A DNA stretch of 64,000 bases from positions 1 through 64,000 of the IMG/VR virus record IMGVR_UViG_3300037041_001875; one strand, 5' to 3'. The stretch's first letter is position 1. The number at the start of each line of letters is the position of its first letter. Made by a program: the position numbers and the translations under genes. The notes under the pieces were generated by a model. That model was not told where the DNA came from, searched no databases, and was given only the letters and a program-made list of their open reading frames with translations. This stretch comes from a virus. This document shows, in pieces, positions 370 through 42,525 of the stretch.

Positions 370-461
370 CCTTTAACCCCCTTAAAGGCCCTGGCCATAA
401 TCTCGAGGGGGCGCCGTAGCCTAGTCAATTCGATTTCTAACTGGTCGTCCTCGTCAGACAT
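366..461 (-). CDS. Small 31-aa acidic/basic protein
   Basis: A 31-codon reading frame begins MSDEDDQLEIE and ends with a basic tail (ARAFKGVKG). It sits exactly between two real genes: a GGAG ribosome site lies seven bases before its ATG inside the end of the upstream gene, and its TGA overlaps the next ATG. An ATG two codons earlier also overlaps the upstream stop but is too close to the GGAG. Function unknown. The case rests on the tight stop-start coupling on both sides. Confidence 0.55.
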   Translation of the reverse strand: MSDEDDQLEIELTRLRRPLEIMARAFKGVKG

Positions 462-463
462 TG

Positions 464-982
464 TCATTCTCCTTCGAGGCTTTCGAGCTCATCGAGCGCT
501 TCGACGAGTCGCGTAAGAGACTTGATCTCGTGCTCTGGTCCGTAGGACACATAAGGCGCCCCGCGAGCTTCACGTTGCAGGTTGACAATCACGGCGAGCT
601 CGAGTTGATAGTCTCGAGATGAGCTGAGCTCGGCCTGCCGTGGGTCGCTGTTCACGAGGTCTTCCCGCCGAGTTACCGCTTCGATTTCCTCGACGGTGTC
701 GTCTTGCGGCGGCAAGGCCTCGGCGGGAACCTGCTCAGCCTCGAGCACTGGCTCTGAGCGAGCTTTGAAGCACTCATCGCAATGATCCGTGCGCGTGCCG
801 TCGAGGTTACGGCCTCCATGCCAACCAGGCGCGTGCAGACCGTCGAGGAACCATATCGACGGGATCGGCCCCTTCCATTGGGGGTCGTATATCGTATGCT
901 CGATGCCGCATAGGTCGCACTTGATATGCGGCTTGCCGGGAACGCCGTCCAGTCTATCGTCTAAACCGCAATGGTAGCTCAT
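464..982 (-). CDS. Hypothetical protein with two CxxC pairs
   Basis: The 172-aa protein has CDLCGIEH near residue 22 and HCDECF near residue 67, a likely single zinc-ribbon-type site, followed by an acidic, charged C-terminal half rich in Glu and Arg. I chose the internal ATG at 982 (MSYHCGLDD) rather than the longer frame because it limits the overlap with the preceding Cys-rich gene to about 29 bases. The ribosome site there is weak, so the start is uncertain. It belongs to a coupled minus-strand run of small genes. No specific function can be assigned. Confidence 0.7.
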   Translation of the reverse strand: MSYHCGLDDRLDGVPGKPHIKCDLCGIEHTIYDPQWKGPIPSIWFLDGLHAPGWHGGRNLDGTRTDHCDECFKARSEPVLEAEQVPAEALPPQDDTVEEIEAVTRREDLVNSDPRQAELSSSRDYQLELAVIVNLQREARGAPYVSYGPEHEIKSLTRLVEALDELESLEGE

Positions 983-1250
983 GAAAAGTCGTGTCCACTT
1001 TCCGGGCCTCTTCGACCTCTTCGGGCGTAGGTACTCGATTCTCTCGCTGATAGGTGTTAAGGCCACAGCAACACCCCGCGCCTGCACACAATGTCGTTGC
1101 ATAAGCTATGCTCATCGCAATAAGGTGGCAGCGCCAACGCTGGCCGTCCCAGAATAAGTGCTTGCAATACGTAACAGGATCAAACCCACCATAACTGCAT
1201 GGTCCCTTACGGCAACAAAAACCGCAACCTATGCAGGCCTTCCCGATCAT
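954..1250 (-). CDS. Cys-rich YkgJ-like metal-cluster protein
   Basis: The 98-aa protein opens with CIGCGFCCRKGPC, followed by a Cys-His-Leu-Phe segment, a WRCHL segment and a CAGAGCCCG segment. This order (CxxC-x2-CC, then spaced single Cys, then a Cys cluster) is like the YkgJ/Fe-S-cluster-containing family, whose members bind metal through conserved cysteines, often with unknown substrates. Its ATG overlaps the stop of the upstream gene as ATGA, with a GGGAGAAG ribosome site. The C-terminal third is charged and helical. Family call is moderate; role in the virus is unknown. Confidence 0.75.
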   Translation of the reverse strand: MIGKACIGCGFCCRKGPCSYGGFDPVTYCKHLFWDGQRWRCHLIAMSIAYATTLCAGAGCCCGLNTYQRENRVPTPEEVEEARKVDTTFHELPLRFRR

Positions 1251-1468
1251 TTCTTCTCCCAGCTAGAGCAAAGACTCGAGCCGTCTGTATAAACCGTGAC
1301 TCTTCGAGGAAAGACCTCGTTGGCGTCCAAATAGCTTCGAAGCTCACACTTCCAATAACGTCCCTTGTAGCCGAAATCCGCCAAAATTTCAGCGCTAGTC
1401 TCATAGCCGCTCTTGTGTTTGCAATCCTTACAGCTCTTGCCCCTTGGATGTAACACGTCAACAGTCAT
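1247..1468 (-). CDS. Small CxxC protein
   Basis: This 73-aa protein has SCKDCKHK near residue 12, a single Cys near 41 (WKCELR) and SLCSSW near the end, so it could hold one metal ion. The start at 1468 is preceded by GGAAGGAAAG and lies inside the last codons of the upstream gene. Its stop overlaps the next ATG. Unknown function; one of several tiny putative zinc-binding proteins in this operon. Confidence 0.65.
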   Translation of the reverse strand: MTVDVLHPRGKSCKDCKHKSGYETSAEILADFGYKGRYWKCELRSYLDANEVFPRRVTVYTDGSSLCSSWEKK

Positions 1469-1658
1469 GGCTTTCCTTCCAGCCGTCCTTTTCGAGGATT
1501 GCCTCGAAGGGACGTTTGTGCATACGGTGTCCATATTCCCATAGCTTTGAATCAGCCCAGCGACCGCCGTAGTACACTTCTTGGTCGTTGATACACTGCA
1601 CAAGCAGGTCTGACCCATCGGGCGAAACGAACCTTTGTCCTGCTCTAACGACTATCAT
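1458..1658 (-). CDS. Hypothetical 66-aa protein
   Basis: The protein begins MIVVRAGQRFVSPDG and looks like a small beta-rich fold (a SH3-like start followed by an aromatic, charged tail with YYGGRW). The ribosome site AAGG lies nine bases upstream. It overlaps the next gene by 11 bases. Not recognised. Confidence 0.6.
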   Translation of the reverse strand: MIVVRAGQRFVSPDGSDLLVQCINDQEVYYGGRWADSKLWEYGHRMHKRPFEAILEKDGWKESHDC

Positions 1659-1698
1659 GACAACTAACCTTTTTTATCCGCCAAATACAATGGAATCT

Positions 1699-1788
1699 CT
1701 AGGTGCTTACCTTGTTATGCCCCATGGAGTAATAATACGCCCAGCCATGATTTCCTAAATCCGCAACAATCTGCTCATTGTCTAGCAT
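1699..1788 (-). CDS. Possible 29-aa peptide
   Basis: A short frame begins MLDNEQIVADLG and contains WAYYYS. A purine-rich GAGGGAAG site lies in the end of the upstream gene about seven bases before its ATG. It fills a gap that would otherwise be empty, but at 29 codons it could be chance. Confidence 0.3.
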   Translation of the reverse strand: MLDNEQIVADLGNHGWAYYYSMGHNKVST

Positions 1789-1791
1789 GGG

Positions 1792-1971
1792 TCACTTCCC
1801 TCTTTCTAAATAACGGTCACAAGCTCTGCTATTAGCATGTGCTGGCCGTTCCGCCGTGTGTCCCGATACGTATATCAAGCATCGACCATACCCATAAGGC
1901 CAGTTTGCGTTAGTGCCTCTGCCATTGATGTAGCACTTACAGGTTCGGCAGGTCTTAGGTGGGTGTCCCAT
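1792..1971 (-). CDS. Small CxxC zinc-ribbon-like protein
   Basis: The 59-aa protein has KTCRTCKCY near the N-terminus, a Cys near residue 30 (GRCLIYV) and a Cys near residue 51 (ACDRY): a plausible four-Cys metal site. The start at 1971 (MGHPPKTC) is supported by AGGAG six bases upstream; a longer frame to 2010 has no such site. Unknown role. Confidence 0.65.
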   Translation of the reverse strand: MGHPPKTCRTCKCYINGRGTNANWPYGYGRCLIYVSGHTAERPAHANSRACDRYLERGK

Positions 1972-1987
1972 GGGGAGCTCCTTGCGG

Positions 1988-2299
1988 TCAGTCGTCCTTG
2001 ACAGTGCCAAAAATGCGGTACGACTCGATCCCTGTGGCCTTGTCGTTGAAAGGCCCCTCGACCATCGCGTCGGGAATGAACGTCAAGGCCTCGGCAACTT
2101 GATCGCCGAGCTGCGTCGACACTTGCACGAGCACCCCACGGCCTTCGATGTTCATGGCCTTTGTGGATTTCATCCAGCCATGGCCGTCAGAGTAAATCTT
2201 AGAGATGATCTTCCAGAGGTCTGGATTGCCGATGATTTTTACGGTGCTATCGAGCTCCTTGACGTCAGCAGTGTTTTTTGCGTTGACTTGCTTTACCAT
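1988..2299 (-). CDS. Hypothetical 103-aa protein
   Basis: The protein begins MVKQVNAKNTADVKELD and has mixed alpha/beta character with a central FW-like WKIISKIYSDGHGW segment. It sits three bases after the HTH gene at 2303-3358, so the two are co-transcribed. No recognisable domain. It may be a nucleic-acid metabolism accessory by position only. The start has a GGAGTGACC site upstream. Confidence 0.7.
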   Translation of the reverse strand: MVKQVNAKNTADVKELDSTVKIIGNPDLWKIISKIYSDGHGWMKSTKAMNIEGRGVLVQVSTQLGDQVAEALTFIPDAMVEGPFNDKATGIESYRIFGTVKDD

Positions 2300-2302
2300 T
2301 GG

Positions 2303-3358
2303 TCACTCCTTTATGTGTTCTATCTGCAAAGCGCATGATCCACAGGTTGGGCATATGCCGTAGACCCCAACCTCTTCGGGCAGGTCTACCACGGTGTCGA
2401 GAATCCACGAACATCCCTGCGGGCAAGCGCAGCGCCATGCCAAGAGCGGCCGCGAAGACCTCGAGATCAAGAGGAGCTGTTCCTTGTCGCGGAAGAACTT
2501 GGCCACGAATCTATCGAAAACAGATTCGCCCGGTAGCAAGAGCAACCGCACCGCAGCGTGACCTTCCCCGCGAGCGATGAGGCGCATATAAACAGGAACT
2601 CTGCTCAAATCTCCCCAAATCGACCCCTGATCCCCAGGCCGAGCGCTCCCACGGGTGTCCTCAGAGAGCTCGAAGAGCGCTTGGTATTCTCCCACTTGGT
2701 CTATGGGAAGAATCTCCGCGAGGAGCTCGAGATCGATGGGCAGACGCTCGACGAGCAAGCGCTCCTCTTGCCACTGCCTCTGAGCGGCCTGGGCCTTGCC
2801 CCCAGGTGTCCACCCGCCCTTGTCCCGGCGAATCTCCCCACGAGGAACGACCGCGGGGGCCTCGACGGCGCCGAAGGCTAGAGCGGCCTCGCATTCGTCC
2901 TTGCCGCAGCTCTTCGGCGGAACGGCTACGCCGTCAGCTCCATAGAAGAAGCGCTTCGCAGGGATAAGCTCTTGGCAAACTGGGCAAAGCACCTCGGGTG
3001 CCACCACCCGCGGCCGGCCGGTCGGCTTGATGGGCTCGTTCACACGGCCGAGCTCCACGACGAGCTTTTTCGCATCGCAATGGAAGTGAGCGGCAAGAGC
3101 CTCGAGGCCTTCCCCGTCGCGGTAGCGCTGAACAAGCTCGACGAGCTGGTCTGTGGTGAACTCGTACTTATTAGGCGGCGGCCGGCGTATGGGCCTATCA
3201 GGGCTCCCAGTGATACCAAGCTCGCGGCAGACGACCTTGACCACGGTCGACCAGGCTACGCCAGTCTTGCGGGCAATGTCGGGACCAGTCATGCCCGTTT
3301 CGTATAGTTCAACGATTTCAGTGATCTGCTCGCGTGTTAGGTGAACTCCGCTGGGCAT
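2303..3358 (-). CDS. Large DNA-binding protein: two helix-turn-helix motifs plus zinc ribbons
   Basis: This 351-aa protein has two N-terminal resolvase/transposase-type helix-turn-helix segments (residues about 7-45, LTREQITEIVELYETG...IARKTGVAWSTV, and about 67-105), then a Cys cluster near 128-160 (CPVCQEL, then CGKDEC) and a C-terminal zinc ribbon (CACPQGC...CPTCGSC). The combination suggests a sequence-specific DNA-binding regulator rather than an enzyme; no catalytic motif is seen. Its ATG overlaps the stop of the upstream membrane protein. It is the largest product of this leftward operon and could act on the palindromes at 3673-3713, but that is inference. Confidence 0.75.
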   Translation of the reverse strand: MPSGVHLTREQITEIVELYETGMTGPDIARKTGVAWSTVVKVVCRELGITGSPDRPIRRPPPNKYEFTTDQLVELVQRYRDGEGLEALAAHFHCDAKKLVVELGRVNEPIKPTGRPRVVAPEVLCPVCQELIPAKRFFYGADGVAVPPKSCGKDECEAALAFGAVEAPAVVPRGEIRRDKGGWTPGGKAQAAQRQWQEERLLVERLPIDLELLAEILPIDQVGEYQALFELSEDTRGSARPGDQGSIWGDLSRVPVYMRLIARGEGHAAVRLLLLPGESVFDRFVAKFFRDKEQLLLISRSSRPLLAWRCACPQGCSWILDTVVDLPEEVGVYGICPTCGSCALQIEHIKE

Positions 3359-3633
3359 TATCGTTTGATCCTTATTGATTCCTTGACGGTGTCAAGGAGC
3401 TGCGATTCGATGCAAGAGCCGAGGCATGCCTGCAAGGTCGCCGAGCAGCTCTTATTTACGGTTTCGATTTCTGTTACGTGCGCCTTGAGAGCTCTTATTT
3501 CCGATTCAAGAGTTTGAATCTGCTTAAGCTTTTCGTCACTTCTGATAGTGAAAACAGTTATCAGGAACACCATTAATGCAACCCAAAGCATATAAAGGAT
3601 TGCTACCGTGCGCCCACTTAAAAAATCTATCAT
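3358..3633 (-). CDS. Membrane-anchored coiled-coil protein
   Basis: The 91-aa protein has one N-terminal membrane helix (residues about 9-30, VAILYMLWVALMVFLITVF) followed by a heptad-like coiled coil (about 34-60) and a Cys-containing tail. Small inner-membrane spanins look like this, but so do many unrelated phage proteins. It is the first gene downstream of the 3634-3832 control region, with AAAGG upstream of its ATG. Confidence 0.65.
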   Translation of the reverse strand: MIDFLSGRTVAILYMLWVALMVFLITVFTIRSDEKLKQIQTLESEIRALKAHVTEIETVNKSCSATLQACLGSCIESQLLDTVKESIRIKR

Positions 3634-3672
3634 TTTTTCGCCTTTTTTAGCTCACGAGCCTTTCCCTATCAC

Positions 3673-3690
3673 GACAAATAGGTATTTGTC
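3673..3690. repeat. Inverted repeat GACAAATA-GG-TATTTGTC
   Basis: Perfect 8-bp arms around a 2-bp centre, 17 to 40 bases upstream of the start region of the leftward membrane-protein gene. Typical size for a dimeric repressor operator. Confidence 0.6.
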
Positions 3691-3698
3691 AAGCGCCT

Positions 3699-3713
3699 GT
3701 TTACAATGTAAAC
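3699..3713. repeat. Inverted repeat GTTTAC-AAT-GTAAAC
   Basis: Perfect 6-bp arms around a 3-bp centre, placed 26 bp (centre to centre about 24-25 bp) from the neighbouring palindrome. The two have different arm sequences, so two proteins or one tolerant protein could bind. Confidence 0.55.
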
Positions 3714-3832
3714 GTGCAAAATCGGCGCGGAGCGCTGGGCACGTTTCGAGAAAAATTTACCTAAAAAGGCAGTTGACCGCCTTTGACCGGACCTTGACTC
3801 GATTTTTTGGGGTTTTTTGGGGTTTGGCCGGA

Positions 3833-5531: not shown

Positions 5532-5767
5532 TTGTTGCCGTCTCTTTCTTCGATTGTGAGTTGTGGTTCATATGTTTCAGAAAGTGGGTCAGTGTAGGTT
5601 TTTGTTTCACAAACTGAACATACATAGACAGTCTTAATTGTCACCATATCATCAAATTTATAGTTATTATTCTCGTCAATTATCGAGATACTTATATAAG
5701 TATCTCTCTTTTGCCACTTTTGCGATTTGCATTTTCGGCACTTCTCAATTTTTACTATCCGTTTCAT
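5528..5767 (-). CDS. Zinc-ribbon protein, first gene of the leftward AT-rich cluster
   Basis: The 79-aa protein has KCRKCKSQKW near residue 9 and VCSVCETKT near residue 48, a classic two-knuckle zinc ribbon that may bind nucleic acid. The start at 5767 follows GAAAGGAAAGGG; the longer frame (to 5851) begins in AT-rich noncoding DNA. As first gene after the divergent region it could be a regulator of the cluster. Confidence 0.65.
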   Translation of the reverse strand: MKRIVKIEKCRKCKSQKWQKRDTYISISIIDENNNYKFDDMVTIKTVYVCSVCETKTYTDPLSETYEPQLTIEERDGNK

Positions 5768-6070
5768 TTTTTGTTTCCCTTTCCTTTCCTTTCGTTTCTC
5801 AAAAATATGTTTCCTGTATTTTTTGACATACCATATCACAAAAAAATTCACAAAAAAACAAAAAAAGATAAAAAAGAATATCCCACAATAACTTGTGACA
5901 ATTTTGACATACTGAACAATCTTTCAGAGTTACTTATGTTAAGTTTTAGTGATACTGTAATAAAAAATAATAAGAGAAAATCATTTTTGTGTGAATTTGT
6001 TTCAAACTGGGATAGTCTGAAAAATAAAAAACAAAATTTTTGGGAAAATGAAAGAAGTGAGGCAAACAAA
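5768..6070. promoter_or_regulatory. AT-rich divergent intergenic region
   Basis: These 303 bp separate the leftward cluster (from 5767) and the rightward cluster (from 6071). The region is very A/T-rich with A-tracts and carries the 11-bp direct repeat TTTTGACATAC at 5821-5831 and 5902-5912. Both contain a -35-like TTGACA on the plus strand, but I cannot place a convincing -10 at standard spacing. No gene is supported here. Confidence 0.5.
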
Positions 6071-6301
6071 ATGAAAGAGACGGGAAAAGCGCTAAACTAT
6101 ATCGCCAAAATGAGGAACAAGGAAAAACAACGATATGCGCAGGCATACTATGAATACTGTGAAAATATTCGATCTGACGATCCTACACTAAGCTCGACTT
6201 ATGGTTGCGATCGTATGGCCAAACAAGCGGTCAGACTTGAACTCGCATTTTTCGGCATATGCGAAAAAAACAGACCATTTGCATCATACTGGCCACAATG
6301 A
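6071..6301 (+). CDS. Hypothetical 76-aa protein
   Basis: The start at 6071 (MKETGKALNYIAK) follows GAAAGAAGTGAGG. The upstream frame extension is a low-complexity reading of noncoding AT-rich DNA. The protein is Tyr- and Arg-rich and ends in ASYWPQ, a tail echoed as GAYWPQ in the next gene, suggesting a shared module or ancestry. Unknown function. Confidence 0.6.
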   Translation: MKETGKALNYIAKMRNKEKQRYAQAYYEYCENIRSDDPTLSSTYGCDRMAKQAVRLELAFFGICEKNRPFASYWPQ

Positions 6302-15465: not shown

Positions 15466-16229
15466 GGCACTGGACCTTTCAGAGCTCCGGTGAGGTTGAT
15501 CACCGGGGGTCGCTCTGGATACCCATACTTCTTAGCCCAATGCCACCATCCTGCAAGGCTCACTGCGGCCTCGAGGCCTGGGGGAGGTAGGGAGCTCACG
15601 AGGCTCCGTAGATGCTCCGCGGCGCGGTAAATCTCCGATGCCGAGACCTCGATAACCTCTGGGAGCTCGGGCGCGTCGGCAAGAGCAGGTGCCCAACGGG
15701 GGATGAGCTCGGCCTCGGGGCGCACGGGAACAACCGTGGTGCTTCGAGCTGGCCAGACCGCTTTGACTGCGGCGCAACCGTATCCGCCGCCCGTGGCCTG
15801 GAAGTAATGGTGCGAGGGATTGTCGCGGTAGACCTCATGGATTTGCTGCAATATCTCTCGAGCCATAATCTGGTGAGCAATCATTTTCAATTGATTGTTA
15901 CTCCCAGCAAACAAAAATGTCCTTCCCTTATCGGACATTTCGTATTCGTCCATAACTTGCTTTATGACACGAATACGAGGAACTTTATCGTCCCATGTGT
16001 ATACTATAACATCTAAATCTTTGCATATGCTAGTTATAGCCTCGCCAGTATTACCACTAGTCGCCACAATAACCGTTCTCACGCCTTGTAAGGCCGCAAA
16101 GTGCTTCACGGCCATAGCTTCGCGGTATTTAAATGATCCCGTTGGGAGCATATAGTCACATTTAAAATAGACCATGCGTCCGCAACTATCATCTGATAGA
16201 ATTAAAGGGCTTCTTGTTATTTCTTCCAT
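15459..16229 (-). CDS. Fold-type II PLP enzyme, threonine-synthase-like
   Basis: The 256-aa protein has the PLP lysine motif PTGSFKYRE (Lys near 34), the SGNTG asparagine loop (58-62), the phosphate loop TGGGYG (146-151) and ends in LTGALKG like threonine synthases. It is shorter than typical members (300-420 aa), with a reduced C-terminal half. Members do beta or gamma replacement on serine/homoserine derivatives: cysteine synthase, threonine synthase, diaminopropionate synthase. Seven bases of overlap couple it to cysH; thirteen couple it to an ATP-grasp gene. Substrate cannot be told from the sequence; a cysteine or diaminopropionate-type product would suit its partners. Confidence 0.8.
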   Translation of the reverse strand: MEEITRSPLILSDDSCGRMVYFKCDYMLPTGSFKYREAMAVKHFAALQGVRTVIVATSGNTGEAITSICKDLDVIVYTWDDKVPRIRVIKQVMDEYEMSDKGRTFLFAGSNNQLKMIAHQIMAREILQQIHEVYRDNPSHHYFQATGGGYGCAAVKAVWPARSTTVVPVRPEAELIPRWAPALADAPELPEVIEVSASEIYRAAEHLRSLVSSLPPPGLEAAVSLAGWWHWAKKYGYPERPPVINLTGALKGPVPW

Positions 16230-17041
16230 GCTGCCCCCAAGAATTGTGCACCAGGGAAATGATTCATTTCAATGACTACATACTTGTTATTCTCATCGAA
16301 GGTTCCATCAACAGACCATCGGTGGTTCTTACAACCCTTAACCTTTGGCGCAACTTCTTTATTTATCTGCTCCACCACTTCGGGTATACCATCAATCCTA
16401 CCGCCAAAATGAGCAACGTTGAGAGTCTTTTGTAGTACTACCTTTGTACTTTTAGAGTCAAGATTGCTCAAATCCATATCTTCCGTGTCCCTTACAAAAC
16501 CATCTAAATCTACCAAGATATATTTTGGTTTTTTCCAGCCAGCAGTAGAAATACCTTCAAGGTTAAAATACACTGGCGTCATTGTTATAAAGTCCACACA
16601 GTCTTGCCCAATGAATCTAATAATGGGCGGGCATCGAGTATCATCCGTGAACTTGTGCAGTTGATCGGCCGGGTGAATCCATTCTTCGACAAACCACGCA
16701 CGAGAAGATAGTAATTTTTTGCGGGTATTTAATTTTATTCTTCTTATCTTATCTAGTTCAGAAGGTAAATCACTCGCTGAAAATAAACAGTCGTATGAAA
16801 AAATCATAAACCCTTCAGCAGTCTTCTCTAACAGAGCTACGCCACTATTCTGCCGACCACACCGCGGTTTCCAAACATATTTACCTATAGGCGCTTTTAT
16901 TAACCTATCTATATTGTAGTAAAACTCGCCTGGATTAATTAAGGTCGCAGGATAAGCAAGTGACGTGTTATCACTTAACCACTGCTTAGTGAAAATCTTG
17001 TCCCAAAACTCTTTAGCATTTAAAATCATTACTTCTTCCAA
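16217..17041 (-). CDS. ATP-grasp ligase-like protein, paralog 1
   Basis: The 274-aa protein has N-terminal KIFTKQWLSDNTS shared with its two neighbours, then the ATP-grasp landmarks: the strand with the ATP lysine YVWKPRCGRQNSGVAL (about 54-69), the adenine-contact strand WFVEEWI (about 116-122) and the C-terminal metal-binding DGTFD...YVVIEMN (about 244-262). ATP-grasp enzymes join a carboxylate to an amine or thiol via an acyl phosphate. AT-rich base use, more so than the reductase gene downstream. The family call is from motifs only; its overall look recalls tubulin-tyrosine-ligase-like members. Confidence 0.65.
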   Translation of the reverse strand: MEEVMILNAKEFWDKIFTKQWLSDNTSLAYPATLINPGEFYYNIDRLIKAPIGKYVWKPRCGRQNSGVALLEKTAEGFMIFSYDCLFSASDLPSELDKIRRIKLNTRKKLLSSRAWFVEEWIHPADQLHKFTDDTRCPPIIRFIGQDCVDFITMTPVYFNLEGISTAGWKKPKYILVDLDGFVRDTEDMDLSNLDSKSTKVVLQKTLNVAHFGGRIDGIPEVVEQINKEVAPKVKGCKNHRWSVDGTFDENNKYVVIEMNHFPGAQFLGAAWKK

Positions 17042-17853
17042 ACAACACCTAAGAAGGGTGTTCCTATGGCAGAGTTCATTTCAATTATAACAAACTTGTT
17101 ATCTTTATCAAATACGCCGTCAACAGACCAACATTTATTGTGGATTAACTTCAGTTTTGGGCTAATCTCACGATTCACTTGGTCAATAATCTCTCGAACA
17201 CCTTCAATTTTATGCCCACATAAATCGGTGTCTATACGCCTCTCCACAACAGACACTAGAGTTTTCTTGTCTGCGTTAGACAGGTCCATTTCATCGGTGT
17301 GCCTAACAACGCCATTGAAATCTAGCCATAAATACTTTCGATGGTCCCAACCAAAAGACGATATGCCGACCTCGTTAAAGTATACCGGCGAAATCACTAC
17401 GAAATGAACGGCGCTTCGTCCACAGATACGAATAATCGGCGGGCAACGCATATCATTTGTGAACTTGCCAAGTCTTTCGTGCGGTTTAACCCATTCCTCG
17501 ACAAACCAGTTTCGGTGATCTTTAGCTTCTTTAGCTTCTGAAATAGTTAATCGTTTTATTCTAGTTAATTCTTCAATTGTGTCCTGTAAAGGCATAACTG
17601 TATCAGATGGGAATATTTTATATCCGTCAACAGTTTTATTTATAAGAGCGATTCCCCAGCCTTTCCGGCCAAAACAAGGCTTCCAGACGTACTCACCTAC
17701 AGGCAAATCTTCCAATTTTTTAGCAACCTCGTTGAAAAGGGCTAATTCTACTATAGTTTTAGGATAGGCAAACGACGTGTTTTCACTTAGCCACTGCTTA
17801 GTGTAGATCTTATTTGCAAATCTCTTCGGTACTATTTTCAAATTGATAATCAT
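17029..17853 (-). CDS. ATP-grasp ligase-like protein, paralog 2
   Basis: The 274-aa tandem duplicate of the previous protein has KIYTKQWLSENTS, YVWKPCFGRKGWGIAL, WFVEEWV and VDGVFD...FVIIEMN in the same positions. Sequence similarity is spread over the whole length. Keeping three copies suggests that each adds a different unit or acts on a different acceptor. Its ATG overlaps the stop of paralog 3 (ATGA). Confidence 0.65.
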   Translation of the reverse strand: MIINLKIVPKRFANKIYTKQWLSENTSFAYPKTIVELALFNEVAKKLEDLPVGEYVWKPCFGRKGWGIALINKTVDGYKIFPSDTVMPLQDTIEELTRIKRLTISEAKEAKDHRNWFVEEWVKPHERLGKFTNDMRCPPIIRICGRSAVHFVVISPVYFNEVGISSFGWDHRKYLWLDFNGVVRHTDEMDLSNADKKTLVSVVERRIDTDLCGHKIEGVREIIDQVNREISPKLKLIHNKCWSVDGVFDKDNKFVIIEMNSAIGTPFLGVVWKK

Positions 17854-18740
17854 GGCCGTCTCAATGCGTCAAAATTGTGCAAGTGCTTCACATTTGGAGC
17901 ATGTTCTATTTCAATACAAACAAAATCCACTGAATCATCTTTGTTATGCCTATAGACTCCATCAAACGCAAACAAGGCGTTAGGGCTCATTACCGCACAC
18001 ACCTCAATTTTTATAGCCTCTATAATCTTATCAAAAAAGGGTAAAACCATCCCCGTAACGTCTTTCACCGTTCCATAATTCTCGATTGACCAAGGCAAAT
18101 CGTTTGGTATGTCTGGTCGGGTCTGTAAGAGCTCGCCCTTGTAGTTGAAACAGATGCGCCGTGCACCGCCCTGCAAGGTTCCGCGCCCTCGAGAAGCTTT
18201 CGTAGGTATGTGGAGCTCCCCAAAGTGGAAATCTCCGCGACTCATGATGATCCTCACGAGCGGATTGAACGGAGCATCATATCCAAGAGTTTTTAGTTCT
18301 TCTGGTGCCGGCGAAACATATTCCTCGACTATCCATTTATGTGCAGAGGGCACTCTTGGCATATCCGAAGAAATATCAACAAACAGTTCCGCGGCGTTGA
18401 GTAGTCTTAGATTAGCGTCTCTAAAACCCAAATCGTTAGGCTCTTTCCAAACCATTCGAACGCCTCTGGAACGCGATAGATTAATCGGTTTTACTACCAC
18501 CCAACGCTCTGTAGGACAACTAGAACTGACTAGCCACGTACATAAATCTGCCCATGTAGCTGAGCAGACTAATGTAGGCGGAACTTGAAATGACGTGTTA
18601 TTTAGAAGCCAATTCTTAGTCCATACTTTATTCCAAGTGGATCGCAGTAATTTCTTTTGAGGCGCAGCTATATTCTTTTTGCGCTCTCTAGGTGTTATTC
18701 GAACAACATGGGTCACCGTAGTTATGACAACTTTACCCAT
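17850..18740 (-). CDS. ATP-grasp ligase-like protein, paralog 3 (divergent)
   Basis: The start is set at 18740 (MGKVVITTVTHVVR), after GAAAGAAG; a longer frame to 18941 lies over the upstream gene. The 296-aa protein keeps KVWTKNWLLNNTS, WVVVKP (ATP lysine), KWIVEEYV and FDGVYR...VCIEIEH, but the Gly-rich loop and the C-terminus differ from paralogs 1 and 2. It also has an extra 30-residue basic N-terminal stretch. First ligase of the coupled set. Confidence 0.65.
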   Translation of the reverse strand: MGKVVITTVTHVVRITPRERKKNIAAPQKKLLRSTWNKVWTKNWLLNNTSFQVPPTLVCSATWADLCTWLVSSSCPTERWVVVKPINLSRSRGVRMVWKEPNDLGFRDANLRLLNAAELFVDISSDMPRVPSAHKWIVEEYVSPAPEELKTLGYDAPFNPLVRIIMSRGDFHFGELHIPTKASRGRGTLQGGARRICFNYKGELLQTRPDIPNDLPWSIENYGTVKDVTGMVLPFFDKIIEAIKIEVCAVMSPNALFAFDGVYRHNKDDSVDFVCIEIEHAPNVKHLHNFDALRRP

Positions 18741-19125
18741 CTTTTGGCTTCTTTCGTGGTGTTTTGGAGCGTACAATATGCCGAGGTGTATTCTTACCTT
18801 CTGCGGCCGCTTTGGTCTGGCGAGCTTTCTTCTCTTTTGCCCTACGCTCAAAGGGTCCAGTTCCATGCTCTGACATGAACTTGCCAGGGGAACTGGACAA
18901 AACTTGATTGTCACGTACCTCTTCCATCCCGCAAACATCACACGAATTCTCGCCCATCAAGCGATTGCCACACTTCTCGCACGATTTTGCGCCCATCCAA
19001 CATACAAAGCACAGGTCACCCACATGGGTGTCCCTGATTGGAGCACTATGCCGGTGACATTTCCTGCATGCCCTTATCGTGAGGGGGTAATGCCCCCAGC
19101 TCTTACTTGTAAAGGTTGTGGTCAC
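18733..19125 (-). CDS. Zinc-ribbon protein with basic tail
   Basis: This 130-aa protein has CRKCH, CFVC, CEKC and CDVC pairs (residues about 20-67), a double zinc ribbon, followed by a Lys/Arg-rich tail of about 40 residues that could bind nucleic acid. It is coupled (8-base overlap) to ATP-grasp paralog 3. It might deliver an acceptor or regulate the cassette; no direct evidence. Confidence 0.65.
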   Translation of the reverse strand: MTTTFTSKSWGHYPLTIRACRKCHRHSAPIRDTHVGDLCFVCWMGAKSCEKCGNRLMGENSCDVCGMEEVRDNQVLSSSPGKFMSEHGTGPFERRAKEKKARQTKAAAEGKNTPRHIVRSKTPRKKPKDG

Positions 19126-29387: not shown

Positions 29388-30653
29388 GTGCTACCCAAGC
29401 GCATGCGGAAAAAATTAGGCTCTCCTATCCCAAAATGGGCTATAAGTCAACAGGATATTGTTGACGTGAACCTACCTATTGGATTTCTAAGGGATTTTAT
29501 TGATTACGTTGAGCTATGTACTGACGCTCCTAGAGTTTTTGCGCTTGGAACAGGGCTAGGTATATTAGCCGTTGCGTGTGGTAAATGCAACGTTGTCGTT
29601 AAAAGTTCCGATCCTAAGCTAGAGTCTATTTTGCCCATTCGTCTATGGCAAGCGCTACTTGGAACGTCGGGACAAAGAAAATCTAAAGTAATGGATTTAG
29701 GTGTCGGATTATTACAACGCACAAATCATACTTTTTTATTGCCCGATGATGGCTCAGTAGAAGCTTGGCATGACGAGATGGTTGAGCAACCCATATCTTT
29801 AATGTATCAAGAAGAGTTGTCAGGGTTATTTGATGCTCAACAGAGGTCATATAGTAATGGATTGCAATCTTGGATGTTAAAGTTATGGTCTGGCACAGAT
29901 AAAGACAGGAAAACTAAAGGTGGTGGTATTAAATCCATAGTACGACCTAGATTAAATGTTCTTGGGGCCATACCTCCTGATGTGTTTCTGAAAAAAACTA
30001 GATCAACTGATTGGAGAAGTGGATACCTTCCACGGTTTTTATATTGGGGCGGCGCTAGAGAAGAATGGGCAGATAACTGCTACAATGCTCCTAAACAAGA
30101 ACTATTCTTATCTGAGCAATTAAAACAGGTTCATTTTAATAGTGATGGTAATATAATAATACCCCATCTGATTAGCAAAATGCTATCAGAATGGTTTTAT
30201 GACACAATAGAATCAAAAAGGGAAGATTTTTTAGAAGATACTTATGCAGGACTGCTAAGACTTCAAGAAGTAGGTCATATTATAGCCGCTTTGGTGGCAT
30301 TATCACGATCTATGAGAATTGTTAGTAAAGTGTCTTCAACACGACTTCTTGTATTAGAGAGTGATATGAGTGTAGCAATTAAGATTCTTAACTTATGTAA
30401 GAAAACGATTGAATCTATATCCAGCAGAGCGAATAAAGACGGTGTATCGGTTATTGAAGAATCCATAGTCGACCTTTTAATCGGGAACTCCGCAGGGTTA
30501 ACCGCAAGAGAAGTGGTCAGTAAATTACCTATGTCCTATGATGCCGCTTCTAAACATTTGAAAAGCTTAGCAACCGCCGGGATAGTATCAGTGACTTTTC
30601 GCCCCGGGCCTAGTAGAGGCAGGCCGTCTAATGTTTACAAATATAGTGAATAA
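29388..30653 (+). CDS. DUF3987-like replication protein with C-terminal winged helix
   Basis: The 421-aa protein has an N-terminal region of the DUF3987 type (phage/plasmid primase-helicase relatives): a helical FIDYVELCTDAPRVFALGTGLGILAV segment, then LLGTSGQRKSK (92-100), a P-loop-like GxSGxxKS in which the Gly before Lys is Arg. The last 70 residues (IGNSAGLTAREVVSKLPMSYDAASKHLKSL...GIV) form a winged helix. It is AT-rich compared with flanking genes and sits just before the repeat array at 31.2 kb, so it is the best candidate initiator. GTG start at 29388 after AAAGGG; the ATG at 29403 is an alternative. Confidence 0.7.
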   Translation: MLPKRMRKKLGSPIPKWAISQQDIVDVNLPIGFLRDFIDYVELCTDAPRVFALGTGLGILAVACGKCNVVVKSSDPKLESILPIRLWQALLGTSGQRKSKVMDLGVGLLQRTNHTFLLPDDGSVEAWHDEMVEQPISLMYQEELSGLFDAQQRSYSNGLQSWMLKLWSGTDKDRKTKGGGIKSIVRPRLNVLGAIPPDVFLKKTRSTDWRSGYLPRFLYWGGAREEWADNCYNAPKQELFLSEQLKQVHFNSDGNIIIPHLISKMLSEWFYDTIESKREDFLEDTYAGLLRLQEVGHIIAALVALSRSMRIVSKVSSTRLLVLESDMSVAIKILNLCKKTIESISSRANKDGVSVIEESIVDLLIGNSAGLTAREVVSKLPMSYDAASKHLKSLATAGIVSVTFRPGPSRGRPSNVYKYSE

Positions 30654-31198
30654 AATCCCCTCGGGAGCGTCGATTTATTTTTGAGCCTCCATAATTTAAA
30701 GCTTAATGATTTCATATTTTTAGGTATTATTTATTTTTTATTTTTTGGAGCCCCCCCTCTCTCTTTCTCTTCTGTATAAATACCCGGGCAGGTATCTCCT
30801 CTACCTGTTCCTATGCACACTATATGCAAGGAACTAAATTGAACATCTCTCGCACCTTCTCACTCTCGCGCTCTCCTTCTTGCGAGCCTCAGATGGCCAG
30901 TTCACAGCTAGTTGAAGCCGTGTACCGTTGTAAACGCCCCACGCGAAGAACTTGGTGGGCGCGTGAACAGATGATCAAACTATGAGAAAATAAAAAAAAT
31001 ATTCTAAATACATATGTAAGAGTGCGAGATCACTGAGGTTGTTTCTTTGTGATTTAACTACTTTTGACTGTTTTTAACCTTATAAACTTGAAATCGTTAA
31101 GCTTTTTGGCCTATATCGCCATGTGATTTTTATGTGTTTTTATGGGTTTTTATGAGGGCATTAATAAGGTAACTCTTAATAAACAGATTGAAACAAAA

Positions 31199-31297
31199 AC
31201 GTTCTAACTGTCGTTACAACGTTGAGACAACGTCTATACGACGTCGTCTCTTAGCTTCAGACGACGTTGTATCTTCGCTTCAAACGACGTTTGTCTC
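31199..31297. repeat. Helically phased ACGT repeats, consensus GACGTTGTCTC
   Basis: ACGT cores start at 31199, 31219, 31230, 31241, 31264 and 31287 (spacings 20, 11, 11, 23, 23). The best units are GAGACAACGTC 31225-31235 (inverted), GACGTCGTCTC 31240-31250, GACGTTGTATC 31263-31273 and GACGTTTGTCTC 31286-31297. Each lies on about the same face of the helix. Confidence 0.65.
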
Positions 31298-31383
31298 GAA
31301 ACTGTGTAAGACCTTCGAAGCATCAAAAGCGATCTGAACAAGAGACGCTGTGAAGGACAAGAAGAAAAGTTGAACCCCGACGC

Positions 31384-31419
31384 TTTTTTGTTTGACACCG
31401 TTGGAAGCTTTGGTAAACT
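31384..31419 (+). promoter_or_regulatory. Likely promoter of the virion operon
   Basis: T6 tract, TTGACA at 31392-31397, 16-bp spacer, TAAACT at 31414-31419. The TTTTTTG(G/T)TTGACA block is shared with two other intergenic sites. It overlaps any start earlier than 31428 for the next gene. Confidence 0.5.
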
Positions 31420-31427
31420 GCTGGGCA

Positions 31428-32165
31428 ATGAACGCGGCAACGCACGACCTCTGCTTGTTCTGGGTTCCCAATAGGGTGGCTCCCACCCCACGTAGTTCCT
31501 CAGTAAATACCGAGAATCCCGACGACATTTGCGCCTATCAGGACGAGGTCACTGCCCTCGAAACCCTACGCGAAAAGCTGAGCGTGGTAGCCCAAAAGGC
31601 TACTGGGACCATTCACGAGCTTCCCCAAATTGACGGTGCTCCTAAGCTCATCGAGAAGCCTTGGGCTACCTTCGAGGCAGGGCAGCGCTATGTGGCTTGG
31701 AACCTGTTCGCCGTCGACCCTATCAGCGGTCATGAGGTCCAGCTCTCAAAGCGCCTCGAGAACGTTGGCGGCGGGGTCATGTGGCTCGAATCGATCCGCT
31801 CAGATCGTGCCGTGACACGAGTTGTGCCACCTCAAGAGAACATCGAGCGAGGATATCGGTGCGAAACGTGTCGGAGATTCTCCTACGAGCAGGGCCAAAA
31901 ATGGCTCAACCAAGAGACGCACCGCTTCGAGAGCGCTAACGCGCAGATGTGGCGTGATGTCATGGAGCTCATCGCCGAAAAACAGGATGTAGAGGTTCCG
32001 AATTCCCTAGAAGACTTCGGCGCCTGTTTGGAAGATTCCAAGCTGGTTGCAAAAGTATACCCTGGCTGTAATAAGTACAAAGCTCGCGTAGCCTGGAGAG
32101 TCGACCAATGCCCAACGGGAACGACTCTCGGAGAGGAGAATGGCGAGTCTCGCCTTGGGCGGTAA
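31428..32165 (+). CDS. Hypothetical 245-aa protein
   Basis: The protein begins MNAATHDLCLFWVPN; mixed fold with a CETCRRFS pair near residue 143 and charged helices. The ATG at 31428 would be almost leaderless relative to the promoter at 31384-31419, and no ribosome site is seen, so the true start may be a later GTG. First gene of the long rightward virion operon. Unrecognised. Confidence 0.6.
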   Translation: MNAATHDLCLFWVPNRVAPTPRSSSVNTENPDDICAYQDEVTALETLREKLSVVAQKATGTIHELPQIDGAPKLIEKPWATFEAGQRYVAWNLFAVDPISGHEVQLSKRLENVGGGVMWLESIRSDRAVTRVVPPQENIERGYRCETCRRFSYEQGQKWLNQETHRFESANAQMWRDVMELIAEKQDVEVPNSLEDFGACLEDSKLVAKVYPGCNKYKARVAWRVDQCPTGTTLGEENGESRLGR

Positions 32166-32590: not shown

Positions 32591-32934
32591 TTCCACTTAT
32601 CCCCTTCCAAGACCTGCTCGTGATAACCCTAATTGCCGTGGGATTCTCATTCGTTGTGACTGGTTCCACGATAGGATATCCCATCCGTTTCGTGGCCTAT
32701 AAGGCCCTCGGCTGGATAGGCTCAAGCCCCATTTGGCTCGATAGCATCGCTCGTTGCCCGTACTGTCACGCATGGTGGCAGGGGCTCGGGTGGGCTTGGT
32801 ACACCGGACACGGATTCTGGGAATCTCTTCAGGCGGCTTTCGCCGCATGCGGAATCGCCGCCATAGTACAAGCTCAGTGGTCACTCGCAGCAGGGAAAGA
32901 AAGCTACGTCAGGGAAGGGCGCAAAAATGTCTAA
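32587..32934 (+). CDS. Membrane protein of DUF1360-like type
   Basis: The 115-aa protein has an N-terminal membrane helix (about residues 8-30), then ARCPYCHAWWQGLG, the Cys-Pro-x-Cys-x3-W signature of small DUF1360-type membrane proteins, and a second hydrophobic helix (about 80-100). ATGA overlap at both ends. Could be virion membrane or assembly protein. Confidence 0.65.
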   Translation: MIPLIPFQDLLVITLIAVGFSFVVTGSTIGYPIRFVAYKALGWIGSSPIWLDSIARCPYCHAWWQGLGWAWYTGHGFWESLQAAFAACGIAAIVQAQWSLAAGKESYVREGRKNV

Positions 32935-34738
32935 AGTCAGCAAAGAAGAGGTCTTGAAGGCCTTGGGCACGGCCCAATTGCAGGGCGTCAAAGAGGCCGT
33001 CAAAGAGCAGACCAAGGAGATGGGCATGCTCAGCGGGATGATGCCGGGAAGGGCGAATCCCGTGGTCACAGGGGCCTTTGAGCAGGTCGCTCAGCAGGCC
33101 ACAGCCGTGCGGCTCAACATCCAACGGCGAGATCCAGTCTCGGGCAAAATGACGTATATCAGAGGCCCTGGCGAAATCGACGCCAACCTCATCGCCAGCA
33201 AGGGCCTGCCCGAGATTATTGATGACTGGTGCGGCGGCGGCGAGTACACCGTCGAGGTCATGGCGCCCGGTCAAGAGCGCCTCATGCAGAACTTCACGGT
33301 CGGCGGGGCTCCGCAAGATCCTGGCTATCGAGCGAAGACTGCCGTTGCCGGCGGGGTTCCGGTCAATCAGGCCTATGACCCCTCGCACTACTTCGGCGTG
33401 CCGAGGCCGATGTACGCATCTCCGCAAGACAACTCGAGCAATATGGCCGTCAAAATGATGGAAATCATGATGGCCAAGGAAATGATGAGTGCCAAACTGG
33501 GCAGCGTATCCAACGCAGGTCAAGCCTCGTCCGAGGTCCAAGAGCTCCGCGCCGAGCTCGCTCGCATGCGGGATGACCAGAAGCGCGCCGAAGAAGATCG
33601 CCGCCGCACCGACGAGATGGAACGCTTGCGGCGCGAGGCGGCCGAAGACCGGCGCAAGTCCGAAGAGCGCTTCGAGAAGCTGCTCTCCGAGATGCACAAG
33701 GACAAGACCCCGGCGTGGGTAGGCCTGGCACAAGCGGCGATGCCTGCGCTTGCCGAAGTCTTCAAGGGCAAGGACGCCACAATGGGCCTGCTCTCGAACA
33801 CGTTCGGGACCGTCTTGCAAGCGCAGCAAATGGCCGCACAGCAGCAGTCTGAGACCTTCAAGATGCTGTTGAACCGGCCCACGGCTACGGACGAAATCTC
33901 GAAGATGACCTCGGTCTTCGCACAGAGCCAGCTCACGAACTTGCAAACCATCAACCAGATCGTGAGCTCAGGCCTGCTCGACAAGGGCGGCGGACACCCG
34001 CTGGTCGAGCTCCTCTCGCAGATCATCGACCAGGGCGGGCAAGTGCTTCAGGCCGGTCTATCGGGCAAGCAGGCGGCCGCAGGCAACATCGCCGGCATAG
34101 AACCGGAACCGGCTCCAGTGCTCCCACCTCGAGCAAGCTCTGAGGTTCCGCAGTTGCCGGCGCCCAAGGACACCCAGAAGCAATATGACCTAAACGCCGA
34201 TCCCTCGTTTCGGGTTATCATCGAGCAGATCAAGGGCAACGGCGATCCACGAGAGATTGCTCTGAGACTCTATCGCCACGGACAACCCCTTCGAGAAGAC
34301 CAAGGGCACCCGTTGGCGAAGTCTTGGTGTCGAGATCCTGAGAGTTACTCACGCCTCGTGCTCAGCCAGCTAGGTGTGCCTGACGCACGCATTCAGCAGA
34401 TCACAACGGCGCTGGTAGACCTCGCGCTGTGGGTCAAAGATGGCCGTGACCCAGAGGAATTCGCCAAGGTCGAAACACGCCGACGTCGACGCAAGAGGTT
34501 AGTGCCTTCAGCATCACCAGAGATGCAAGCGACACACGGCTTCTCGTTCAACCCTGACGAGCTTGATGATAGCGCCGAAGAAGAGTTCTACGAGGACGAC
34601 GACGGCGATGATGAACTGAGCAGAAGTCTCGAAGACGACGAGCTTGACGGTGAGGACGATGCACAGCAACAAGAGATGAGCTCGGTCATCGCAGAAGAGG
34701 CTCGGGCCGCCGAGGCTTCTTCAGTTGCGGAGTCGTGA
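32927..34738 (+). CDS. Large coiled-coil virion-operon protein
   Basis: This 603-aa protein has a mixed N-terminal region (1-180), a highly charged coiled coil (about residues 195-255, with Arg/Glu-rich QKRAEEDRRRTDEMERLRRE), an Ala/Gln-rich helical middle and a strongly acidic C-terminal tail (about 540-590, runs of Asp/Glu). The length and composition suit a scaffold or internal organiser. No ATPase, portal or protease motif. An acidic tail could contact the many basic small proteins of this operon. It overlaps the previous gene by eight bases. Confidence 0.7.
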   Translation: MSKVSKEEVLKALGTAQLQGVKEAVKEQTKEMGMLSGMMPGRANPVVTGAFEQVAQQATAVRLNIQRRDPVSGKMTYIRGPGEIDANLIASKGLPEIIDDWCGGGEYTVEVMAPGQERLMQNFTVGGAPQDPGYRAKTAVAGGVPVNQAYDPSHYFGVPRPMYASPQDNSSNMAVKMMEIMMAKEMMSAKLGSVSNAGQASSEVQELRAELARMRDDQKRAEEDRRRTDEMERLRREAAEDRRKSEERFEKLLSEMHKDKTPAWVGLAQAAMPALAEVFKGKDATMGLLSNTFGTVLQAQQMAAQQQSETFKMLLNRPTATDEISKMTSVFAQSQLTNLQTINQIVSSGLLDKGGGHPLVELLSQIIDQGGQVLQAGLSGKQAAAGNIAGIEPEPAPVLPPRASSEVPQLPAPKDTQKQYDLNADPSFRVIIEQIKGNGDPREIALRLYRHGQPLREDQGHPLAKSWCRDPESYSRLVLSQLGVPDARIQQITTALVDLALWVKDGRDPEEFAKVETRRRRRKRLVPSASPEMQATHGFSFNPDELDDSAEEEFYEDDDGDDELSRSLEDDELDGEDDAQQQEMSSVIAEEARAAEASSVAES

Positions 34739-39713: not shown

Positions 39714-40586
39714 ATGGGCAAGAAGAGATACGTTCCACGGTGGATGCACTCCCGTGTGGTCGTTACGTCCTTGGGTGACATGATCGCCGACCCCGAGCTG
39801 TTCATGAACAAGACGGCGTGGCCTTTCAAGATCGAACATCTCACAATCTTCGGCTATCCATTGGACGTTGATCACAACTTCCTTCAAGCGGGTGGCATCG
39901 GCTCTCTCATCCAAGGAGAGATTGGTATCAGCGGGTCGACCGACGTCAATCTAGTTCCTGCCCCTGTCAATGCATCTTTTGGGTGCACTGAACTGCATAC
40001 ACAAATCGGCGCCTTCATGGAAGGCACCACGATGAAATTTAAACACCCTTATCTACTCTCGCGTGATAGCGGGTTCAATGTCGAGTGCACTCTGAACCTC
40101 GACGATTGCGGTACGCGCACTTTTCTTACTTCTATGAAACATGGTGTAGCTCTCTTCGGAGTGAAGGTCCAGTCGGGCAAGCCTGCGATGCTGGCTGGAT
40201 TGTTCCGGCATTTGGATGTTCCTACAGGAAGCTCCTTCACCATCGAAGCGGCAGACCTGTTCAACGATGGCGAAGAAGATGTGCTAATTCAAAGTATGCA
40301 GTTAACGCACCCAATGGAAGATATGCACTCTATCCTTATGGGTGTTTACTGGAAGATAAATCCAATGTCTGGCTTGACTTGGATGGATCAACCGGTGCAT
40401 ATCTCTGGAATCACGCCTTACACGATGTCTCGACGCAACTTCGATGGCATAAAACCATTTTCCTTAACTCCACTAGAAGACACTTATTTGTATCGGCGGC
40501 AAAGATTGGGGATCAAGTTGACACCTCTAGTGGATGAAGACCAGCCAGTCAATATAACTCTCTTCGGCTATTTGGAGGTGGAGTGA
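39714..40586 (+). CDS. Beta-rich virion protein, possible double jelly roll 1
   Basis: The 290-aa protein appears to have two similar halves. Each half opens with a strand after a charged turn (AWPFKIEHLTIFGY; EDVLIQSMQLTHP) and closes with a GV-LFG-type strand (GVALFGVKVQ; VNITLFGYLEVE). The closing strand is shared with the next two genes. This is the pattern expected of double jelly-roll capsid proteins, the smallest known (about 270 aa, phage PM2) being of this size. AGGAGG upstream. Confidence 0.5.
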   Translation: MGKKRYVPRWMHSRVVVTSLGDMIADPELFMNKTAWPFKIEHLTIFGYPLDVDHNFLQAGGIGSLIQGEIGISGSTDVNLVPAPVNASFGCTELHTQIGAFMEGTTMKFKHPYLLSRDSGFNVECTLNLDDCGTRTFLTSMKHGVALFGVKVQSGKPAMLAGLFRHLDVPTGSSFTIEAADLFNDGEEDVLIQSMQLTHPMEDMHSILMGVYWKINPMSGLTWMDQPVHISGITPYTMSRRNFDGIKPFSLTPLEDTYLYRRQRLGIKLTPLVDEDQPVNITLFGYLEVE

Positions 40587-41458
40587 TGGCTAAAAACTAT
40601 CTCCCATTTGCCCGTCGAGTTTACCTCGATGTCCCTGCCGGGACTAGAAGGTCAATTCTACGTGAGCAGTTTTCGAGTGGTATGGGCAATCGAGCTTTTC
40701 TGTCTGATGTGGCAATCGACTTAATTTATATTGATGGGATTACCACGTATAACTACAATTGGCAGGTAGGGCGCGTGCTAACTGAGCGTGTGTTCATGCG
40801 TATGGGTATTTTTGGCGCTCCTTACTTGACAGAAGATTTCTATCCTATCGCGCTATTCAACGATTCTCCTATGGAAGAGGTCGGTGTATGGAGATTGCCA
40901 AAACCATACACAATCTTTCCAGGTGAGAGGTTGAAAGCTCGTGTGCAGTTTTCTCCCGGCGGCGCTGTGGCTCCTTTGCCCAGTGAGGCATATGGTGGGT
41001 ACTATGCAACTTGGCCGAGCATAGCTTTTCACGGTGTCCGTCAAGACAACAAAAGACCCATAGTTTTGTATGATACGTTCCCTTCAACCTTCGATCAAAA
41101 CGACGTGTTCGTGACTCCACCATTAGGGACTCCAGTTATTTTGCAAGGTGAACGCTTGCAATGTCCCAAAGAGACACCCGTAGACATTTATGCCGTGAAA
41201 AATCCCACTTGCGGCGATGGTCAGCAAGGCCAGTTCCCGGGTGTGCAGATTTGGTCGCCCGACGGCCGGAAGTGGTGGGAAGATGATCGGTGGCCGCTGG
41301 TTCTGTATCCCACGTTCGTGATAAAAAATTTGCGTGGGCCTGAATGGGTTTTGGATGTTAGTGAGACGCTGCAAATTGAATTCGAGAATCTTCCTGTTTA
41401 CTCGTTCGATAGAACCTTAATGGTCACGTTGCGCGGTCAAGTGGAGGTAGAAATATGA
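40586..41458 (+). CDS. Beta-rich virion protein, possible double jelly roll 2
   Basis: The 290-aa protein has FLSDVAIDLIYIDG near residue 35, a mid-protein strand WPSIAFHGVRQDN and a C-terminal TLMVTLRGQVEVEI strand like the ending of the preceding protein. The ATG at 40586 shares a base with the upstream TGA, and GGAGG lies seven bases before it. Likely a paralogous capsid or vertex protein. Confidence 0.5.
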   Translation: MAKNYLPFARRVYLDVPAGTRRSILREQFSSGMGNRAFLSDVAIDLIYIDGITTYNYNWQVGRVLTERVFMRMGIFGAPYLTEDFYPIALFNDSPMEEVGVWRLPKPYTIFPGERLKARVQFSPGGAVAPLPSEAYGGYYATWPSIAFHGVRQDNKRPIVLYDTFPSTFDQNDVFVTPPLGTPVILQGERLQCPKETPVDIYAVKNPTCGDGQQGQFPGVQIWSPDGRKWWEDDRWPLVLYPTFVIKNLRGPEWVLDVSETLQIEFENLPVYSFDRTLMVTLRGQVEVEI

Positions 41459-42525
41459 AAAACATTTTCGTGACTACCCCTGGTGTTCCAAGTCCTGTTG
41501 TGGCCTCGAGGTTCACGGCCTTCAAGGGCGAGCGCCCCAAGGTACTCTCGCAAGTTCCCGCGGGTGAAAATGTCGCCGAAGTTTACCCGTGGATTTCGGG
41601 CGTGCGGCACATGATTAACGGTGTGACGGACTCGGAAACCAAGGTTATTCGAGAAGGCTACGGGTCTTCCGCTTTCGTGAACAACACCGACCGAGTTATA
41701 AGTATCAAGCAGTTGAGGTTTTTCTCTTCTCAACCGCCCGGTCTTGTCATGATATTAGGGAATTCGATGATTTATGCCCGCATGGGCATTAAAGTAAGAC
41801 ACACCGATTTCGAAATCGTGTCTGAATGGCTCCCATGCGGCATGCTCGAGACGCAAAACAATGTATGGGAAACAGTTGCCCGTAGCAATCTCTGTATGTC
41901 CCTGCCAACCCCGTACTATTTGCAGTCGGGACACACGTTCAGGACACGCATACGCTCAACTAATCCGTTCATGGCCGCTGCGAATTATTCTTTTTCTATG
42001 ACTTTGTTCGGCAAAGACCCAAAGAACGGCAAACCGTATGAGCTTTGCAAGCAAGTGACCGTGCCCTACCGCGCCACGCCGGCAGTTAGCGCCGCAAACC
42101 CCCTGTATGTGGACGTTGTGTTTGATGACAACCGCGACTATCCCATGCGAGATATGCTGTTAACGCATATTTTGTTTTCGATAGCTCCACACGCAGGCGT
42201 GGGGTACGAGCAGGTTTTGCGTTACGCACAGCAACTAGATTTTCAGTTTATGCCGCCCGAAGGGCCAAAGTGGCTAGACTTTGCCGACTGGGCTCCAGTG
42301 GGTAACTTGGTAGATCAAACAATATGTAGCAATGTTAGTGCTTCGTTTGTTTCATACAGGCCAGAAACGCCTATACTTTTCGCTCCTAGCCAGCAGATAG
42401 ATATTGACGTCAGAGCGCTTGCGCCGTTGTCTTATCAGGATGCCGAGGAGCCTAGAGAGCTTATCTACGAGGTTCCGTTGTGGGTCACGTTGATCGGCAC
42501 GCAAGAGCAGCAGGTGAACAGATGA
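41455..42525 (+). CDS. Beta-rich virion protein, possible double jelly roll 3
   Basis: The 356-aa protein has two halves ending in matching strands, NYSFSMTLFGKDP (about residue 180) and VPLWVTLIGTQEQ (end), each preceded by an opening strand (RVISIKQLRFF; YPMRDMLLTHILF). The longer loops (for instance after residue 210) could form surface towers. The three tandem paralogs would let the particle use different proteins at different lattice positions. ATGA overlaps at both ends. Confidence 0.5.
   Translation: MKNIFVTTPGVPSPVVASRFTAFKGERPKVLSQVPAGENVAEVYPWISGVRHMINGVTDSETKVIREGYGSSAFVNNTDRVISIKQLRFFSSQPPGLVMILGNSMIYARMGIKVRHTDFEIVSEWLPCGMLETQNNVWETVARSNLCMSLPTPYYLQSGHTFRTRIRSTNPFMAAANYSFSMTLFGKDPKNGKPYELCKQVTVPYRATPAVSAANPLYVDVVFDDNRDYPMRDMLLTHILFSIAPHAGVGYEQVLRYAQQLDFQFMPPEGPKWLDFADWAPVGNLVDQTICSNVSASFVSYRPETPILFAPSQQIDIDVRALAPLSYQDAEEPRELIYEVPLWVTLIGTQEQQVNR

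Follow-up and report, generated by a model that had tools for sequence, protein, structure and literature searches.

A conserved tandem dyad array next to an AT-rich tract and a DUF3987 gene is a candidate replication origin in an unclassified virus

Results

Genome organization around a 738-bp gap

The DNA analysed here (hereafter the window) is a 64,000-nucleotide stretch comprising most of a 65,599-base IMG/VR virus record; the virus is unclassified. The first bases of the window occur again 61,864 bases further along. The resulting end repeat, 1–3735 of the window and 61865–65599 of the record, spans 3,735 bases with one mismatch, and the genome unit is therefore taken to be ∼61.9 kb. This repeat is either a real terminal redundancy or the assembly overlap of a circular genome. 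Leftward genes extend to ∼29.3 kb and include those for a UDG-domain family A DNA polymerase, an SNF2-type helicase, a PD-(D/E)XK nuclease, a Sak4-like protein, and Gp157. Three adjacent leftward ORFs at 16217–18941 have a repeated 51-nt stretch in common, which suggests from their sequence that they are tandem duplicated genes. A tyrosine integrase gene is present as well. The rightward genes are one at 29388–30653 and a long series from 31.4 kb, and the array described below lies in the 738-bp gap between them (30654–31391).

The gap was compared between two sequences, the window and IMGVR_UViG_3300048831_000066 (hereafter the relative), and conservation as used here rests on this one pair. 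The relative's initiator protein, encoded just before the gap, is 78% identical to that of the window, and the protein encoded at 32927–34738 is 92% identical. A second related contig stops inside the initiator gene and was left out of the array-conservation score. Protein and DNA-pattern queries of IMG/VR, GTDB genomes, GenBank phages, and PLSDB plasmids returned no further relatives reaching the gap. Other matches were to distant polymerases, one in a Zixiibacteriota MAG and thousands in phages (<60%); a 20-mer DNA match inside a terminase-like gene was dismissed as chance.

The 29388–30653 gene (plus strand) encodes a 421-residue DUF3987 helicase-like protein that matches Pfam PF13148 (48.4 bits, cut-off 27) and PHROG "DNA primase" families. 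Its C-terminus, at about residues 353–421, is modelled as a winged helix, and the DUF3987/winged-helix assignment of the first-pass annotation is thereby borne out. The mean pLDDT of the structure model is 40, with the winged helix alone reliable; fold matches to this domain are generic winged helices, Z-alpha domains among them, and a sequence search for a PDB relative of the protein found none. In the replication proteins of mobile elements, DUF3987 domains are predicted to be replicative helicases, and the C-terminal winged helices of such proteins have been suggested to recognize origins (PMC5862659).

On the far side of the gap, the rightward operon is headed by a conserved plus-strand promoter match, TTGACA-16-TAAACT (31392–31419), which begins 95 bp after 31297, as had been reported. 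Bases 31392–31427 are identical to the relative at 34 of 36 positions. The ATG of the first rightward gene (31428–32165, plus strand) is placed only 9 nt past the -10 element, and the first 80 codons from it carry 26 synonymous as compared to 5 nonsynonymous codon changes. Because the coding pattern starts at this ATG, so close to the -10 element, the first rightward mRNA may be leaderless. Read from ATG 31428, the gene has no Pfam or PHROG match. Among the 39 rightward ORFs (31428–59155), neither PHROGs nor Pfam recognized a terminase, portal, capsid, or tail family, and no Walker A motif emerged from a simple pattern search; the only matches were endolysin-like, thioredoxin, transglutaminase-like, and peptidoglycan-binding. 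The earlier label of "virion operon" is therefore unproven. Three consecutive ORFs at 39714–42525 appear to be distant paralogues with a common C-terminal TL.G..E motif and are candidate structural proteins; the structure model of the 40583–41458 product (pLDDT 35) was unusable.

Noncoding features of the gap

The gap contains the longest ORF-free stretch in the genome, 580 bp at 30654–31233 as compared to 169 for the runner-up (ORFs of at least 60 codons, both strands). Conservation with the relative is patchy: 79% of aligned columns are identical in the array and 82% in 30986–31035, and the weakly conserved parts, 30654–30735 and 31157–31205, are 46–54% identical. Located 3' of the replication gene is a conserved, C/T-rich and G-poor stretch of the plus strand (30742–30845, 81 of 110 columns identical) with 31 C, 15 G, 21 YC dinucleotides, and a small hairpin. 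Its composition makes it a possible Rho-dependent termination region that would end transcription of the upstream gene. An inverted repeat of 25 nt (30698–30722 and 31081–31105, 84% complementary, 358 nt apart) flanks much of the gap and, by eye, is absent from the relative.

The AT-rich stretch described in the first-pass annotation was confirmed at 30986–31205, where AT content is 71% as compared to 48% genome-wide. This tract, which includes the conserved A/T block at 30986–31035, corresponds to the adjacent AT-rich region expected of an iteron-type origin and is a candidate unwinding region, a role that is putative. Its 200-bp window is the second AT-richest of the genome, behind that at 5841. 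Three 10-bp AT-rich repeats, ATGTGTTTTT, were found at 31121–31154 (Tandem Repeats Finder score 52), 52–85 bp ahead of the first conserved array bases and in a part where the relative is 10 nt shorter. The AT-richest part of the genome, at 5600–6100 (78% over 200 bp, window 5841), lies between leftward and rightward genes and is itself an alternative origin candidate.

A locus-specific array of dyads and constant spacers

Both viruses contain a tandem repeat of ∼23 bp in which an imperfect dyad, AGACRAC-(n)-GTYGTCT, is followed by the constant spacer CTTMGCTTC. Tandem Repeats Finder reported it in the window at 31238–31291 with a period of 23, 2.3 copies, and a score of 80; across both viruses the period is 22–23, and the score in the relative is 83. 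Of 1000 dinucleotide-preserving shuffles of the window's gap the highest scored 55, and all of 1000 shuffles of the relative's gap likewise stayed below 77. Shuffling the whole window (n = 50) gave a top repeat score of 59. The array is thus a set of tandem repeats within the ∼17–23 bp range of iteron-type origins, at one locus and above chance.

The array opens with a left flank, ACTGTCGTTACAACGTTGAGA (31206–31226), identical to the relative in 20 of 21 columns (95%), which is followed by a partial or degenerate unit (31223–31235) that carries the half-site AGACAAC and coincides with a 13-nt indel against an extra unit in the relative. Dyad units 1 (ATACGACGTCGTCT, 31236–31249) and 2 (AGACGACGTTGTAT, 31259–31272) each have one mismatch to AGACRAC/GTYGTCT and are jointly the best sites in the genome; unit 3 (AAACGACGTTTGTCT, 31282–31296) has two. 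Two copies of the constant spacer, at 31250–31258 and 31273–31281, bracket unit 2, and the spacer sequence is restricted to the array in both viruses (31250 and 31273 in the window; 6775, 6798, and 6820 in the relative). Successive dyad centres are separated by 23 and 23.5 bp in the window and by 23.5 and 22 bp in the relative. Each step amounts to 2.1 to 2.2 turns, and the sites therefore do not lie exactly on one helix face. The relative, the only one to reach the gap, retains the same kind of array beside its initiator gene, with one unit more, so that the loss of the array named in advance as a refutation was not seen. Its dyads include AGACGACGTCGTCT and AGACAACAGTTGTCT, in which both halves changed together and symmetry was kept.

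The first-pass annotation had described this locus as a helically phased cluster of six ACGT cores. All six are present (31199, 31219, 31230, 31241, 31264, and 31287, with differences of 20, 11, 11, 23, and 23), and the cluster is exceptional: every other 99-bp window of the 64 kb has at most three ACGT, apart from those overlapping 31199–31297, and when the whole window was shuffled 200 times under a locally matched Markov model, the maximum was five per 99-bp window. The conserved unit is nevertheless something other than ACGT, given that only two of the six persist in the relative, where the array itself is kept. The consensus proposed around it, GACGTTGTCTC, was also wrong; it occurs exactly once, at 31224–31234 on the minus strand, and 31240–31250 and 31263–31273 are each one base off. 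The real unit is the dyad of ∼14–15 bp together with its 9-bp spacer. Helical phasing survives as an approximation, at ∼2.2 turns per step, and is loose in detail, with 23 bp equal to 2.19 turns and 31219 to 31287 spanning ∼6.5 turns.

Several explanations for the repeat were discarded. A dispersed regulon was ruled out because dyad matches beyond the array did not exceed chance level in either sequence, the best matches all falling within it. A coding explanation was rejected on the grounds that a period of 23 bp is not divisible by three, the indels break frame, and the window and the relative have no small gap ORF in common. A known RNA family was likewise ruled out, the sole Rfam match in 29.2–32.0 kb being sub-threshold, on the opposite strand, and inside the replication gene. 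The integrase gene lies about 30 kb away, making an attP site unlikely. The locus is occupied by a real, conserved, locus-specific dyad array.

Divergence of the winged helix

When the DUF3987 proteins of the two viruses are compared, identity is 91% in the ATPase region, 54% in the winged helix, and only 5 of 14 residues in the presumed recognition helix. It is doubtful that this domain is the specific reader of the array, because its presumed recognition helix has diverged and the dyad consensus, which the two viruses have in common, has not. Judged from these sequences, either the winged helix would contact DNA with no strong preference for particular bases or the array would be read by another protein.

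Discussion

The 30654–31391 gap is best read as an iteron-type replication origin or part of one, a reading to which we give about even odds. This assessment rests on the iteron-type architecture of tandem sites, AT-rich tract, and replication gene, together with parallels to lambdoid, DUF3987, and pRN1 systems. In the proposed mechanism, the array (31206–31297) would present about three 23-bp-spaced dyad sites to a dimeric initiator, whose binding is presumed. Cooperative binding of this initiator would help to melt the adjacent AT-rich tract and to load the DUF3987 helicase encoded immediately upstream, and the virus's own family A DNA polymerase would carry out extension. Both the start of replication at the gap and the identity of the binding protein are postulated here. 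The elements named in the first-pass annotation (array, AT-rich tract, replication gene, and promoter) are all in place, and an origin is the best single explanation for them, with the repeat unit corrected and the phasing reduced to an approximation. Compositional skew adds little. The AT skew changes sign at 29–31 kb, a change confounded with gene strand, and the GC skew, which the earlier annotation had named as a check, either tracks gene orientation or gives no clear signal when taken by window and by third codon position; at third codon positions there is no consistent switch at 29–31 kb and no clear origin signature. The conserved promoter 95 bp downstream counts against an origin, as do the location of the AT-richest region elsewhere (5841, 78%) and the divergence of the presumed recognition helix.

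The closest parallels differ from the present locus in instructive ways. The lambda origin has four iterons and Stx-phage origins have six, beside an AT-rich tract (PMC7466680). The window resembles these lambdoid origins in having a few tandem initiator sites by such a tract and a copy number that varies among relatives. In the lambdoid phages, however, the origin is contained within the O gene, whereas the array described here is 3' of the DUF3987/winged-helix gene. Its repeat sequence is unrelated to theirs, and the analysis identified no O-like protein. P4 alpha, which acts with an iteron origin of its own, has a Toprim-type primase domain, whereas the 421-residue protein shows only the DUF3987 region and the winged helix; it is doubtful that this protein recognizes the array. 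The Rep protein of the plasmid pRN1 ends in a winged helix, and an essential origin-like element is found 3' of the rep gene (PMC4234260). In pRN1-type replicons and phage BIP-1 alike, a replication gene of the helicase/winged-helix kind has an essential or proposed origin element on its 3' side, as it would here, but that element is one long stem-loop without iterons, whereas in the present pair the tandem dyads are conserved and a stem-loop is not.

This last contrast bears on whether the element might act through a long hairpin formed by a single strand, in the manner of the pRN1 stem-loop, rather than as protein sites in duplex DNA. Such a stem-loop 3' of the replication gene is needed by pRN1-type replicons, and the window array does fold better than its shuffles (z -3.58, 1 of 200). 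The array of the relative, however, has another, weaker fold (z -1.84, 8 of 200), so that a long stem-loop conserved as a structure is not seen. Neighbouring tandem palindromes pair automatically, and conservation extends beyond pairing to the unit sequence and the spacer; we regard a hairpin as very unlikely. A centromere-like or partition site, serving to segregate a prophage kept outside the chromosome, would also appear as a single cluster of short tandem repeats in a noncoding gap. The scanned ORFs, however, include no ParA-type Pfam family, although divergent ATPases could be missed by such a scan, and the tyrosine integrase gene suggests integration instead, which makes this the most improbable of the explanations weighed here.

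Regulation of the rightward operon is the main alternative, though less likely than an origin. Here the dyads would be tandem operators through which a homodimeric regulator represses or activates transcription from the promoter at 31392. They are of dimer-site type, their centres are 22–23.5 bp apart, and the strongly conserved promoter-like match stands right at the start of the rightward series. The tandem dimer operators of lambda OR and OL have a spacing comparable to that of the roughly three dyads seen here. Unlike OR/OL-type operators, however, the dyads overlap the promoter in neither virus, and the last dyad centre lies 103 bp before the -35 element in the window and 146 bp before it in the relative. 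This difference of 43 bp (∼4.1 turns) is close to four helical turns and roughly keeps helical phase, and action at a distance is therefore conceivable. Against an operator are also the lack of any promoter-like site called within the array and the size of the gap, which at 738 bp with a conserved AT tract exceeds the needs of a simple promoter.

An origin of this general kind is already known, and among its possible members the present array is a good candidate whose function is putative. A more specific proposal, in which a separate dimeric initiator reads a tandem-dyad iteron origin 3' of a DUF3987 helicase gene, in a lineage with structural genes outside known families, is speculative, and we consider it rather unlikely as a whole. 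Should the winged helix prove not to be the reader of the array, that role would fall to another protein, viral or host, whose identity would become the point at issue. The compact conserved dyad array, with its AT-rich tract and its DUF3987 gene, offers a concrete and testable candidate for the origin of replication of this virus.
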